From positions 1-64,000 of the forward strand of contig NZ_JANAIE010000006.1 of assembly GCF_029664245.1 (NCBI RefSeq): 64,000 nucleotides of DNA, written 5' to 3'. Position 1 is the stretch's first letter. Each line of letters starts with the position of its first letter. Shown one piece after another: positions 1-53,272 of the stretch. Origin of the DNA: Profundicola chukchiensis (lineage in GTDB: Bacteria > Bacteroidota > Bacteroidia > Flavobacteriales > Weeksellaceae). The notes under the pieces are model-generated. The model had not been told where the DNA came from, ran no database searches, and saw nothing but the letters and a program-made list of their open reading frames with translations. The translations under genes and the position numbers were made by a program.

Positions 1-27
1 AACTTTTATGAAAAGACTTTTACTTCG
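1..27 (-). ncRNA. Small RNA unit A (3' part beyond window edge)
   Basis: This is the first of six copies of a short minus-strand RNA unit. The predicted transcript starts at about position 27, 12 nt after the GC of a sigma-54 -12 element, and reads GAAGTAAAAGTCTTTTCAT then AAAAGTT before leaving the window. Its terminator would lie left of position 1 and cannot be seen. It is inferred to be an RNA because it is nearly identical to unit B, which is complete. No function is known to me. Confidence 0.6.
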
Positions 28-37
28 AGATAATATT

Positions 38-54
38 TGCAAGGCATGTGCCAA
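38..54 (-). promoter_or_regulatory. Sigma-54 promoter of unit A
   Basis: On the minus strand the sequence reads TTGGCAC-ATGCC-TTGCA, an exact match to the RpoN -24/-12 consensus (TGGCAC, 5-nt spacer, TTGC). The GG lies at 52/51 and the GC at 40/39, which predicts transcription start near 27, at the first bases of the conserved RNA block. Confidence 0.8.
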
Positions 55-177
55 AACATGTTTTTTTGCTTATTTATTAAGTATGACTTTTATCAATCTT
101 TTAAATTCAATAGGTGTAAAGCATCCGGAGGTAGTGGATTGCTAATTTTGGTTAGGTGTTTTTGAGTTTATTGCAAC

Positions 178-238
178 AAAAAGCCCCTCACTTCTAAGGG
201 GCTAATTATTCAACTTTTATGAAAAGACTTTTACTTCG
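178..238 (-). ncRNA. Small RNA unit B, sigma-54 dependent, about 61 nt
   Basis: This is a complete unit. Transcription is predicted from about 238. The first 19 nt after the initial C are GAAGTAAAAGTCTTTTCAT, followed by AAAAGTTGAA and a short linker. It then has an intrinsic terminator: stem AGCCCC/GGGGCT (183-203 region) and a U-run encoded by A178-182. The block CUUUUCAUAAAAG can itself form a 5-bp hairpin with a CAU loop. The RNA is minus strand: the U-tract follows the hairpin only in that direction and the promoter points that way. No conserved reading frame is present across the six copies. Confidence 0.75.
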
Positions 239-248
239 AGATAATATT

Positions 249-265
249 TGCAAGGCATGTGCCAA
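249..265 (-). promoter_or_regulatory. Sigma-54 promoter of unit B
   Basis: The minus strand reads TTGGCAC-ATGCC-TTGCA, identical to the unit A promoter. The -12 base is at 250, so transcription start is expected near 238, directly at the conserved RNA 5' end. An enhancer-binding protein would be required; none is encoded in this window. Confidence 0.8.
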
Positions 266-382
266 AGCATGTTTTTGGCTCATTTATTAAATATGACTTT
301 TGTCAATCTTTTAATAATTAAGTTCTAACTAGTTTGAAATTAAGTCATTTGCAGTAATTCGGATAATATTTAGGATTAATGC

Positions 383-445
383 AAAAAAAAGACCCCTCAT
401 TGCTAAGGGATCTTTGTTTAACTTTTATGAAAAACTTTTACTTCA
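383..445 (-). ncRNA. Small RNA unit C, about 63 nt
   Basis: This is the third copy, diverged from A and B. It reads GAAGTAAAAGTTTTTCAT (one base shorter than B in the central run), then AAAAGTTAAA. It ends in a terminator whose arms are GAUCCCU (412-406) and AGGGGUC (397-391), pairing with one G-U wobble, followed by eight U (390-383). The terminator stem resembles that of B loosely but not base for base, so pairing rather than sequence is kept. Confidence 0.68.
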
Positions 446-455
446 ATTTTATATT

Positions 456-472
456 TACAATTGGTGTGCCAA
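456..472 (-). promoter_or_regulatory. Variant sigma-54 promoter of unit C
   Basis: The minus strand reads TTGGCAC-ACCAA-TTGTA. The -24 element and 5-nt spacing are consensus, but the -12 GC is GT. Predicted start is near 445, again at the conserved RNA 5' end. The substitution probably weakens the promoter. Confidence 0.6.
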
Positions 473-8427: not shown

Positions 8428-9735
8428 TTATTTTTTAATGATTTTGAAGCTTTGCTGATCGCCATACTCGTTAATTAATTTTATGATGTAAGCACCAGAT
8501 TTAAGTTTTGAAATGTCAATTTGAATGTTTTTTCCTTCTGCATTTCTGGTTAATACTTTTTGACCTATTAAATTATAAACCTCAATAGATTTTAAGTTAG
8601 ATTCAGACTTAATATGCAATAAATCCTTCGTTGGAACTGGGTATGCCGAATAAGAATTAATGGCGTAATCTTTCACTCTTAATGTTCCAATATTTAAAGT
8701 AAAATCAACGGCTTGACCATATCCTGCAAAAACTCCATAATCTAGTATTGACATTGAAATTGCACAAGGATCAACCACGGCAACCGAGTCGGTATCTGTA
8801 TAAACTTTTGTGATTCTAATTCTAGTTTGGCCTGGTACAGCATCCGTAGGAACACTTATTTCCATACTTACACTGGTATCATCATTACCTGTTGAGTTAC
8901 TAATGGTTCCGATTTCATAAATCTCATTTTCATCATCTAATACCCCATTTTGATTCCAATCGATGAAAGCAACTATATTATTGTCAAAATTGCCATAAGT
9001 ATTTCCTTCGACAGAAAGCGTGTAAGTTTCTCCTGGCGTAACATCTGCTACTGTATCTGTGTGATCTACTAAAATTGAATCCGTGTTTAAGTTGGTAATA
9101 GTTGTTGTACCAAAATTAATAACACTAATCTCTTCAACTGTAGTGTCTGCGATATCGCAATAGGGTGCTGGAAATTCTGGAGTATCAACTTCAAGGTTTA
9201 AAGTAAAATCAACAGCTTGACCATATCCTGCAAAAACTCCATAATCTAAAATTGACATTGAAATTGCACAAGGATCAACCACAGCAACCGAGTCGGTATC
9301 CGTATAAACTTTTGTGATTCTAATTCTAGTTTGGCCTGGTACAACATCGGTAGGAACACTTATTTCCATACTTACACTGGTATCATCATTACCTGATGAA
9401 TTGCTAATAGTTCCGATTTCATAAATCTCATTTTCGTCATCTAAGACACCATTTTGATTCCAATCAATGAAAGCAACTATATTATTGTCAAAATTGCCAT
9501 AAGTATTTCCTTCAACAGATAGTGTGTAAGTTTCACCTGGCGTAACATCCGCTATTGTATCTGTGTGATCTACTAAAATTGAATCAGTGTTTAAGATGGT
9601 AATAGTTGTTGTACCAAAATTAATAACACTAATCTCTTCAACTGAAGTGTCTTCAATATCGCAATAAGGAGCTGGGAAGTTTTGAGCTTGCAACGTAAAA
9701 CTTGCAAGCAAAAGAAGTAAACCTATCTTTTTCAT
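8428..9735 (-). CDS. Secreted T9SS protein with two near-identical GEVED-type domains
   Basis: This 435-residue secreted protein has a signal peptide ending near AQN (residue 19). Two GEVED-like beta-sandwich domains start at PAPYCD (residues 21 and 189). Each holds DWNQNGVLDDENEIY, an acidic, probably calcium-binding segment, and two Cys. Residues about 360-435 form a T9SS type A sorting domain (SYPVPTKDLLHI ... FKIIKK). The protein is therefore exported across the outer membrane by type IX secretion and is likely surface-bound or adhesive. The two domains are almost identical in protein and DNA, indicating recent duplication or gene conversion. Confidence 0.85.
   Translation of the reverse strand: MKKIGLLLLLASFTLQAQNFPAPYCDIEDTSVEEISVINFGTTTITILNTDSILVDHTDTIADVTPGETYTLSVEGNTYGNFDNNIVAFIDWNQNGVLDDENEIYEIGTISNSSGNDDTSVSMEISVPTDVVPGQTRIRITKVYTDTDSVAVVDPCAISMSILDYGVFAGYGQAVDFTLNLEVDTPEFPAPYCDIADTTVEEISVINFGTTTITNLNTDSILVDHTDTVADVTPGETYTLSVEGNTYGNFDNNIVAFIDWNQNGVLDDENEIYEIGTISNSTGNDDTSVSMEISVPTDAVPGQTRIRITKVYTDTDSVAVVDPCAISMSILDYGVFAGYGQAVDFTLNIGTLRVKDYAINSYSAYPVPTKDLLHIKSESNLKSIEVYNLIGQKVLTRNAEGKNIQIDISKLKSGAYIIKLINEYGDQQSFKIIKK
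8692..9675 (-). repeat. 504-bp tandem intragenic repeat
   Basis: The segment 9675-9172 and the following 9171-8692 encode the two GEVED domains with a period of 168 residues (504 bp). The aligned 160 residues differ at only a handful of positions, and the DNA is nearly as similar, so the duplication is recent or kept uniform by recombination. Confidence 0.85.
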
Positions 9736-9843: not shown

Positions 9844-10272
9844 CTATTTTGGATAGAAAACTAAGTTGCCGTTAAAATCTTTCTTGTATTTCCCTAAAAC
9901 ATTACCATACTTATCCTTTTTTACAATGTCGCCGTTGTAATCTTTGGAAAGCGTATACTGAACATTTCCATAGGTATCTTTGACTACCTCGTTACCATTA
10001 TAATCGGTAGATTGAATGGTCTTTCTATTTCCGTATTTATCTTTGGTAACCTTGTTTCCGTTGTAGTCGGTGGATTCTATTTCAATCACGTTTCCATATT
10101 TATCTTTCCAGACAAAATCGCCGTTATAATTGGTAGATCCCTTGGCAATTACATTTCCATATCGATCCTTTGCAACAGTATTTCCATTGTAGTCTTTAGA
10201 ATAAGTTACTTCTTGGGCCTGAGCATATGTCCCCAAAAATAACAGGGATAAAATAAGAATAAGCGTTTTCAT
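9844..10272 (-). CDS. Small secreted protein built of 21-residue YGN repeats
   Basis: This is a 142-residue product that I do not recognise as a named family. A signal peptide ends at AQAQ (residue 20). The whole mature part is six tandem copies of a 21-residue repeat with core DYNGN-x-V-x-KD-x-YGNV, the last one shortened (DFNGNLVFYPK). The pattern recalls YD/RHS or MORN-like beta-hairpin repeats, and Tyr, Asn, Gly and Lys dominate. It lacks a T9SS sorting domain. It stands alone, 108 bp upstream of the GEVED gene in the same orientation. A periplasmic or surface structural role is plausible but unproven. Confidence 0.7.
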   Translation of the reverse strand: MKTLILILSLLFLGTYAQAQEVTYSKDYNGNTVAKDRYGNVIAKGSTNYNGDFVWKDKYGNVIEIESTDYNGNKVTKDKYGNRKTIQSTDYNGNEVVKDTYGNVQYTLSKDYNGDIVKKDKYGNVLGKYKKDFNGNLVFYPK

Positions 10273-52790: not shown

Positions 52791-52800
52791 GTATATAAAC

Positions 52801-52863
52801 AAAAAAAAGCCATTGATTGCTCAATGACTTTAATTTTTCTTTTATGAAAAGACTTTTACTTCA
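52801..52863 (-). ncRNA. Small RNA unit D, sigma-54 dependent, about 63 nt
   Basis: Predicted start is about 52863. It reads GAAGTAAAAGTCTTTTCAT then AAAAGAAAAA. An 8-bp terminator stem GUCAUUGA/UCAAUGGC (one G-U pair, loop GCAA) follows, then eight U from A52801-52808. The conserved 5' block equals that of unit B, while the terminator stem is unrelated in sequence. The hairpin also has T-rich sequence on its right and may end the convergent J-domain transcript. Confidence 0.75.
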
Positions 52864-52873
52864 ACTACTATAA

Positions 52874-52890
52874 TGCAATACCTGTGCCAA
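52874..52890 (-). promoter_or_regulatory. Sigma-54 promoter of unit D
   Basis: The minus strand reads TTGGCAC-AGGTA-TTGCA, a consensus -24/-12 promoter with the invariant 5-nt spacer. The spacer bases differ from those of A and B, so the elements rather than the block are conserved. Confidence 0.8.
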
Positions 52891-52930
52891 ACTCTAATAT
52901 AATTCTTTTTCTGATTTAAATTTAAGAAAT

Positions 52931-52991
52931 AAAAAAACCTCCGACGAATCGGAGGCTAAACTCAACTTTTATGAAAAGATTTACTTCTCGT
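52931..52991 (-). ncRNA. Small RNA unit E, sigma-54 dependent, about 61 nt
   Basis: Predicted start is about 52991, four bases before the conserved block, which here reads GAAGTAAATCTTTTCAT (two bases shorter in the A-run) then AAAAGTTGA. The terminator is a 7-bp stem CCUCCGA/UCGGAGG with a short loop and a run of seven U (A52931-52937). The CUUUUCAUAAAAG core is unchanged. Confidence 0.73.
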
Positions 52992-53001
52992 GGAAAGTAT
53001 T

Positions 53002-53018
53002 TGCAATACATGTGCCAA
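53002..53018 (-). promoter_or_regulatory. Sigma-54 promoter of unit E
   Basis: The minus strand reads TTGGCAC-ATGTA-TTGCA, a consensus -24/-12 promoter. The region further upstream (53019-53198) is free of genes and could carry an activator site; none is obvious by eye. Confidence 0.8.
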
Positions 53019-53198
53019 TGCTAATGTGTCATATGTTAAAGTTATTGTTAAAATTACACTTATGTTGCTGCTCTAGAAGTTTTCACCTTTCATCCCAAAA
53101 ACTTAAGCATTTAAAGCTCATTTAATATTGGTCAAAAACCACTGTTGACTTTATCCTTTATGAATTAAAATTAAACTTTCAGAAGAGACCAAAAAATG

Positions 53199-53260
53199 AA
53201 AAACCCTCCACAATTTCTCATGGAGGGTTAATTCAACTTTTATGAAAAGACTTTTACTTC
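53199..53260 (-). ncRNA. Small RNA unit F, housekeeping-type promoter, about 62 nt
   Basis: The conserved block GAAGTAAAAGTCTTTTCAT then AAAAGTTGAA starts at 53260. It is followed by a 9-bp terminator stem AACCCUCCA/UGGAGGGUU and five U (A53199-53203), then a second U-run. Unlike the other copies it has no sigma-54 elements. It lies 82 bp after the stop of the acyl-CoA dehydrogenase gene on the same strand, and its hairpin is the first terminator after that operon. Confidence 0.7.
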
Positions 53261-53264
53261 GGTG

Positions 53265-53272
53265 CAAATATA
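53265..53272 (-). promoter_or_regulatory. -7 box of unit F
   Basis: TATATTTG on the minus strand exactly matches TAnnTTTG and ends 4 nt before the conserved RNA 5' end at 53260. No clear TTG -33 element is present. This copy would be read by the primary sigma factor rather than RpoN. Confidence 0.6.

Follow-up and report, generated by a model that had tools for sequence, protein, structure and literature searches.

The 64,000-nt stretch of DNA analysed here (the window) lies at the beginning of contig C76 in the Profundicola chukchiensis genome (G000 in genus g1; 2.62 Mb in 108 contigs). The genome contains at least eight putative small RNA (sRNA) units of about 60 nt each, arranged in two arrays and lying on the minus strand within the window. 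The first three units, A, B and C, had been noted in a preliminary description of this DNA, and their sigma-54-type motifs were located as it reported, TTGGCAC-N5-TTGC from positions 54 (A) and 265 (B) and TTGGCAC-N5-TTGT from position 472 (C). The RNA starts were predicted there at 27, 238 and 445, at a conserved block. The block, GAAGTAAAAGTCTTTTCAT, is present at these sites but begins one base later, at 26 (A) and 237 (B), and the copy in unit C, which is one base shorter, begins at 444. The second array consists of three units, D1, D2 and D3, located at window positions 52800-53270, 3′ of an acyl-CoA dehydrogenase gene. The features assigned in the window are as follows.

1-26, minus strand: unit A sRNA, truncated after its 5′ part where the contig stops (the rest and the terminator are on contig C65, sequence L018)
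38-54, minus strand: unit A sigma-54 promoter TTGGCACATGCCTTGCA, motif match
83-96, minus strand: TTGATAAAAGTCAT, located ~43 nt ahead of TGGCAC in unit A, candidate activator-binding site
174-237, minus strand: unit B sRNA, ~63 nt, seed and terminator (stem 203-182), R1 model score 81.7 bits
249-265, minus strand: unit B sigma-54 promoter TTGGCACATGCCTTGCA, motif match
293-306, minus strand: TTGACAAAAGTCAT, located ~42 nt ahead of TGGCAC in unit B, candidate activator-binding site
383-444, minus strand: unit C sRNA, ~62 nt, terminator stem 415-388, R1 model score 78.5 bits
456-472, minus strand: unit C sigma-54 promoter TTGGCACACCAATTGTA, motif match
8428-9735, minus strand: type IX-secreted GEVED/Por_Secre_tail protein, predicted target (start-codon seed duplex of -19.9 kcal/mol)
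52800-52862, minus strand: unit D3 sRNA, terminator stem 52831-52806, R1 model score 79.1 bits
52874-52890, minus strand: unit D3 sigma-54 promoter TTGGCACAGGTATTGCA, motif match
52928-52989, minus strand: unit D2 sRNA (GAGAAGTAAATCTTTTCAT variant), terminator stem 52957-52936, R1 model score 65.3 bits
53002-53018, minus strand: unit D2 sigma-54 promoter TTGGCACATGTATTGCA, motif match
53194-53260, minus strand: unit D1 sRNA, terminator stem 53229-53202, R1 model score 67.1 bits
53265-53272, minus strand: unit D1 housekeeping-type -7 element TATATTTG (TAnnTTTG, consensus from PMC9723704), in place of a -24/-12 element

The last 48 nt of contig C65 (L018 7286-7333) are identical to window positions 1-48, and this overlap falls inside a unit. 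Past the overlap, C65 carries the terminator of unit A and then two more units, at C65:230099 and C65:229913. The array first described as having three units, all of which are present, is therefore larger: at least five units span the C65-C76 contig junction, flanked by lpdA and pyrH (names assigned by reading the ORFs). Since unit B contains the same 48 bases as the overlap, further copies could be collapsed in the gap between the contigs, and because the assembly is broken at a repeat, the unit count is a minimum. Weak matches to the block elsewhere in G000 were considered as extra units and rejected; they are exported-protein start regions or interior sequence. A near match to the block (GAAGTAAAAGTTTATTCAT) was also found in a ~95-nt stretch present in two copies 1.2 kb apart on contig C11 (L020 1502-1570 and 2738-2806), neither of which has a -24/-12 element or a terminator.

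In seven of the eight units a near-perfect -24/-12 element lies 27-28 nt from the conserved RNA 5′ end. Comparison of 14 sigma-54 units from five genomes revealed that TGGCA(C/T)-N5-TTG is kept, with 27-28 nt from the T of TGGCAC to the point where the block begins, and that the 12 bases between promoter and block vary while the spacing stays fixed (counted from the sequences of all 14). Unit D1 has no -24/-12 element; instead, TATATTTG is found four bases ahead of the same RNA 5′ end. The TAnnTTTG motif is the box of the flavobacterial primary sigma factor according to PMC9723704. A TAnnTTTG-like promoter is also associated with the first unit of the acyl-CoA dehydrogenase array in a congener, G002 (Flavobacteriaceae MAG JAUNUH010000001), and both units keep the 5′ end of the others.

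The genome encodes a single PF04552 protein (RpoN) and, with two strong PF00158 matches (E < 1e-60), two sigma-54 activators, so that both RpoN and bEBPs are available, as in an RpoN regulon. One activator is an NtrC-like response regulator with GSFTGA, the other a Fis-type protein with GAFTGA; judged by eye, the gene of the latter directly precedes lptE-like and secG-like genes. For F. psychrophilum, lptE likewise appears in a listing with a sigma-54 activator gene, and the sigma-54 motif SM4 precedes groESL, lon, dnaK, grpE-dnaJ, envelope and gliding genes, giving a regulon of chaperones, envelope stress and gliding (PMC9723704). RpoN is present in 311 of 316 family genomes, and its co-occurrence with the units is thus uninformative. 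The encoded machinery agrees with the sigma-54-type family proposed in the preliminary description, and the units are almost certainly genuine RpoN-type sRNA genes. In three of the seven sigma-54 units (A, B and a third at L018 7157-7170, minus strand), TGGCAC is preceded at a distance of 42-43 nt by a near-palindromic sequence, TTGA(C/T)AAAAGTCAT, of which the DNA examined contains no other copy; it may be an activator-binding site or a simple duplication.

In the region at the window start, five terminator-like sites were found in 660 bp, compared to 0.3 expected, including the terminators earlier predicted for B and C. Each unit has its own terminator and all eight are different. Compensatory changes on both sides were found at 7 of 14 predicted terminator pairs in the eight units. 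Because terminators commonly vary in this way, the pairing supports transcription ends and not a structured function. Thus the pattern first described, conservation in the promoter and the RNA 5′ half with stems that differ yet pair, holds across the units. Fold z-scores range from -3.3 to -4.0, and centroid folds leave the 5′ half single-stranded. The last unit of either array abuts a convergent gene, which argues against the units being leaders, and a leader or riboswitch reading was rejected. Protein coding was rejected as well, with no ORF beyond a few codons and a plus-strand ATG whose frame varies between units.

To establish the distribution of the units, the pattern TGGCAC-N5-TTG-N(8-30)-CTTTTCATAA was searched in 320 family and 396 order genomes with the reversed pattern as a control. 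Five matches were obtained in G000 and matches were confined to two genera; the control gave none in either set, so that the units are not a chance occurrence. The units are absent from the ~700 other genomes searched, a stricter pattern applied to 84,980 species returned G002 and two chance hits only, and no match was found in the viral contigs searched. The range is thus much narrower than the Bacteroidota-wide family initially suggested. Exact-pattern hits in Emticicia and in a Saprospiraceae MAG were rejected as lacking the block and a terminator, and hits of the R1 model outside the genus (42-44 bits, family-wide) were ordinary terminators without the seed or a -24/-12 element.

Where related genomes do carry units, these recur at syntenic places. 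G002 has six units at the same two chromosomal places, five at the acyl-CoA dehydrogenase locus and one at pyrH. In the former array the promoter of unit 1 is of TAnnTTT type and unit 4 has a GAGAAG variant start like that of D2. A FAD-dependent oxidoreductase gene (DadA-like by eye) is situated between units 4 and 5 of this array (L101/L032). In another congener, G001, which has RpoN, no unit was found at either locus. Each of three genomes of genus g25 contains one diverged unit at the acyl-CoA dehydrogenase (acdH) locus, with seed AAGTACTATTCTTTTCATAAGGTAGTTGAG. The g25 RNA (L135, L136 and L134) is longer, ~90 nt, and nearly identical in the three species; in its predicted fold the first nine bases pair downstream, and two UUUUCAU motifs are in or near the hairpin loop.

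Rfam models at gathering threshold, Flavo-1 and Qrr included, gave no hits in the window and none at the array loci but a tRNA; at permissive thresholds only chance-level hits were observed. The identity with Flavo-1 that had been considered possible is thereby excluded, and the initial suspicion of novelty stands: the family is narrow and apparently undescribed.

Reverse-complementing the longest invariant run in the 14 units, the UUUUCAUAA core, gives UUAUGAAAA; for the invariant core UCUUUUCAUAA the result is UUAUGAAAAGA. Taken as a whole, the block is antisense to ATG AAA AGA CTT TTA CTT (MKRLLL), a typical signal-peptide start, and the g25 block to ATG AAA AGA ATA GTA CTT. For genus g1, complementarity of the RNA 5′ end to start codons is therefore evident at the sequence level. 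Target statistics were calculated for a 0.86-Mb sample (~1/3 of the genome, 647 starts) using a cut-off of -15 kcal/mol and 60 shuffled seeds. Twenty-eight of the 647 starts paired at or below the cut-off, compared to a mean of 3.1 and a maximum of 11 for shuffled seeds, none of which did as well. Hydrophobic N-termini were predicted for 24 of these 28 strong partners versus 261 of 647 overall (hypergeometric P ~6e-7). Pairing was strongest for a CHU_C type IX cargo protein, OMP_b-brl_2 barrels, the GEVED/Por_Secre_tail protein of the window and a 1661-aa PKD/CHU_C protein; the top predicted starts are at C54:174861, C32:11885 and C87:154480. In G002, 9 of 298 starts paired versus 1.3 for shuffles, and three reciprocal-best-hit pairs were paired in both G000 and G002, compared to at most one for shuffles. 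Antisenses of random starts from the same genome matched 14.9 starts on average and 8 of 60 reached at least 28; some of the enrichment is therefore what any anti-AUG sequence would give. With the g25 seed no excess was obtained in its own genome (8 versus 5.6, a value equalled or exceeded by 16 of 60 shuffles). Since the conserved 5′ end is complementary to exported-protein starts, the RNAs probably lower production of outer-membrane and secreted proteins. The predicted target in the window contains an almost identical internal duplication of ~170 residues; the neighbouring stretch at 9844-10272 (minus strand) encodes a small exported protein of short tandem peptide repeats (DYNGN..KDKYGN).

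Several known systems resemble the units in part. FopS and GibS (RF04319, RF04182) are short, with an unstructured UUUUCAU 5′ seed and a 3′ terminator; by binding around start codons, the seed prevents initiation on mRNAs that include those for outer-membrane transporters (PMC11697453, PMC7366714). The single-stranded 5′ seed followed by a terminator and, as in FopS, the multiple copies are found here too, and the present family may well work like FopS. Outside UUUUCAU, however, the seeds are unlike (FopS consensus GUGUUUUUCAU...), and tandem arrays with mostly RpoN promoters are a property of the present family: the 14 FopS genes of Bacteroides have sigma-ABfr promoters (PMC11697453), whereas seven of the eight units have -24/-12 elements and D1 alone has TAnnTTTG. 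The FopS covariance model scored 20.5 bits against a gathering threshold of 56, for unit C only. Given this score and the mostly different promoters, we did not file the family as a FopS member.

Vibrio Qrr1-5 are multicopy RpoN-dependent sRNAs of ~100 nt that repress translation by base pairing; they are Hfq-dependent, activated by LuxO and act in quorum-sensing control. The present units parallel Qrr in multiplicity and the RpoN-type promoter only, with no sequence similarity and no hit of the Qrr Rfam model. In the case of the sigma-E-dependent MicA, RybB and VrrA, sRNAs repressing outer-membrane protein synthesis are transcribed under an envelope-stress sigma factor, and the RybB seed is at the 5′ end; these differ in relying on an ECF sigma factor, single-copy genes, Hfq and Shine-Dalgarno regions. 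The LhrC1-7 sRNAs of Listeria (Firmicutes) are activated by LisR and have structure and seeds other than those of the present units. They are a multicopy family repressing surface proteins (PMC11697453). The F. psychrophilum SM4 regulon is similar in that the RpoN of a flavobacterium governs genes for protein quality control and envelope stress; the accessible part of PMC9723704, which deals with this regulon and the Rfp sRNAs, describes no RpoN-driven multicopy sRNA family. No RpoN-driven sRNA family of Bacteroidota, multicopy or not, was found in the open-access literature.

We consider it probable, if far from settled, that the units are RpoN-induced multicopy sRNAs that mask start codons of envelope and secreted protein mRNAs. 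At least eight paralogous intergenic sRNAs of ~60 nt would each be transcribed independently. At seven of them RpoN polymerase, triggered by one of the two sigma-54 activators, would initiate at a fixed point, while the D1 copy, under the housekeeping sigma factor, would supply a basal level. In each RNA an unstructured 5′ seed of ~30 nt would be followed by a terminator hairpin at the 3′ end. The core of the seed, UCUUUUCAUAA, would pair over the AUG and first codons (AUG AAA AGA CUU UUA CUU) and block initiation, so that the synthesis of outer-membrane and secreted proteins is restrained under stress. Points that speak against this reading are the many starts matched by random-start antisenses, the g25 seed without excess in its own genome, the lack of units in G001 despite its RpoN and, in the sampled third of the genome, the lack of any RRM protein or RNA-binding partner.

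The RNAs could also be RpoN-driven but directed at one or a few specific mRNAs, or at a non-secretory target, the signal-peptide match being a by-product of complementarity to one AUGAAAAGA start. An antisense made from any start matches many other starts, each sampled genome contains one clearly best partner (-23.5 kcal/mol in G000, -25.0 in G002), and barrel-type proteins homologous to each other take rank 4 in G000 and rank 1 in G002. With 24 of the 28 strong partners signal-peptide-like and the seed in the upper tail of random-start antisenses, we regard this possibility as rather unlikely, though one to be taken seriously. A role as a sponge or titrating RNA, in which the block captures an RNA-binding protein or a second sRNA in place of mRNAs, would suit a multicopy, strongly conserved unstructured element, and FopS family RNAs do bind RbpB via their 5′ part (PMC11697453). 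The core is, however, exactly anti-start and its pairing with starts exceeds that of shuffles. A sponge function appears improbable.

Descent from FopS/GibS, with diverged sequence and rewiring from the housekeeping sigma factor to RpoN, is suggested by the common build (multicopy, ~60-70 nt, single-stranded UUUUCAU 5′ seed, then terminator), by FopS being among the top weak Rfam hits of unit C, aligned in register, and by its action at outer-membrane protein starts (PMC11697453). Yet besides the low score obtained with unit C only, the common string is merely the anti-start UUUUCAU plus a terminator, and no intermediates were found among the 320 family and 396 order genomes; we think true homology very improbable. 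The tandem spacing of ~186-211 nt and the near identity of units A and B could point to a selfish or tandemly duplicated repeat devoid of RNA function. Conservation is, however, limited to the promoter, the 5′ half and terminator pairing while linkers and stems diverge, the D1 promoter has been swapped for another type with the same 5′ end, and location is kept between genera, which makes a mere repeat scarcely credible.

Start-codon masking by RpoN-induced sRNAs can be extended, tentatively and with considerable doubt, to a class-wide brake on the secretome, with RpoN as a counterpart of sigma-E and the seed tuned to the codon pattern of signal peptides (AUG AAA, A/G-rich, leucine). The arrays would then amplify the dose, the housekeeping-driven copy would supplement it, and exported proteins would be lowered as a class, in contrast to the repression of a few selected mRNAs.

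The control of sRNAs by sigma factors in Bacteroidota is barely known, and here one paralog set bears both promoter types at the same RNA 5′ end. If start-codon masking by RpoN-induced sRNAs is true, the units would make up the first multicopy sRNA family found in the phylum to be driven by RpoN, and flavobacterial sigma-54 would be tied to controlling the load on the outer membrane and on type IX secretion.
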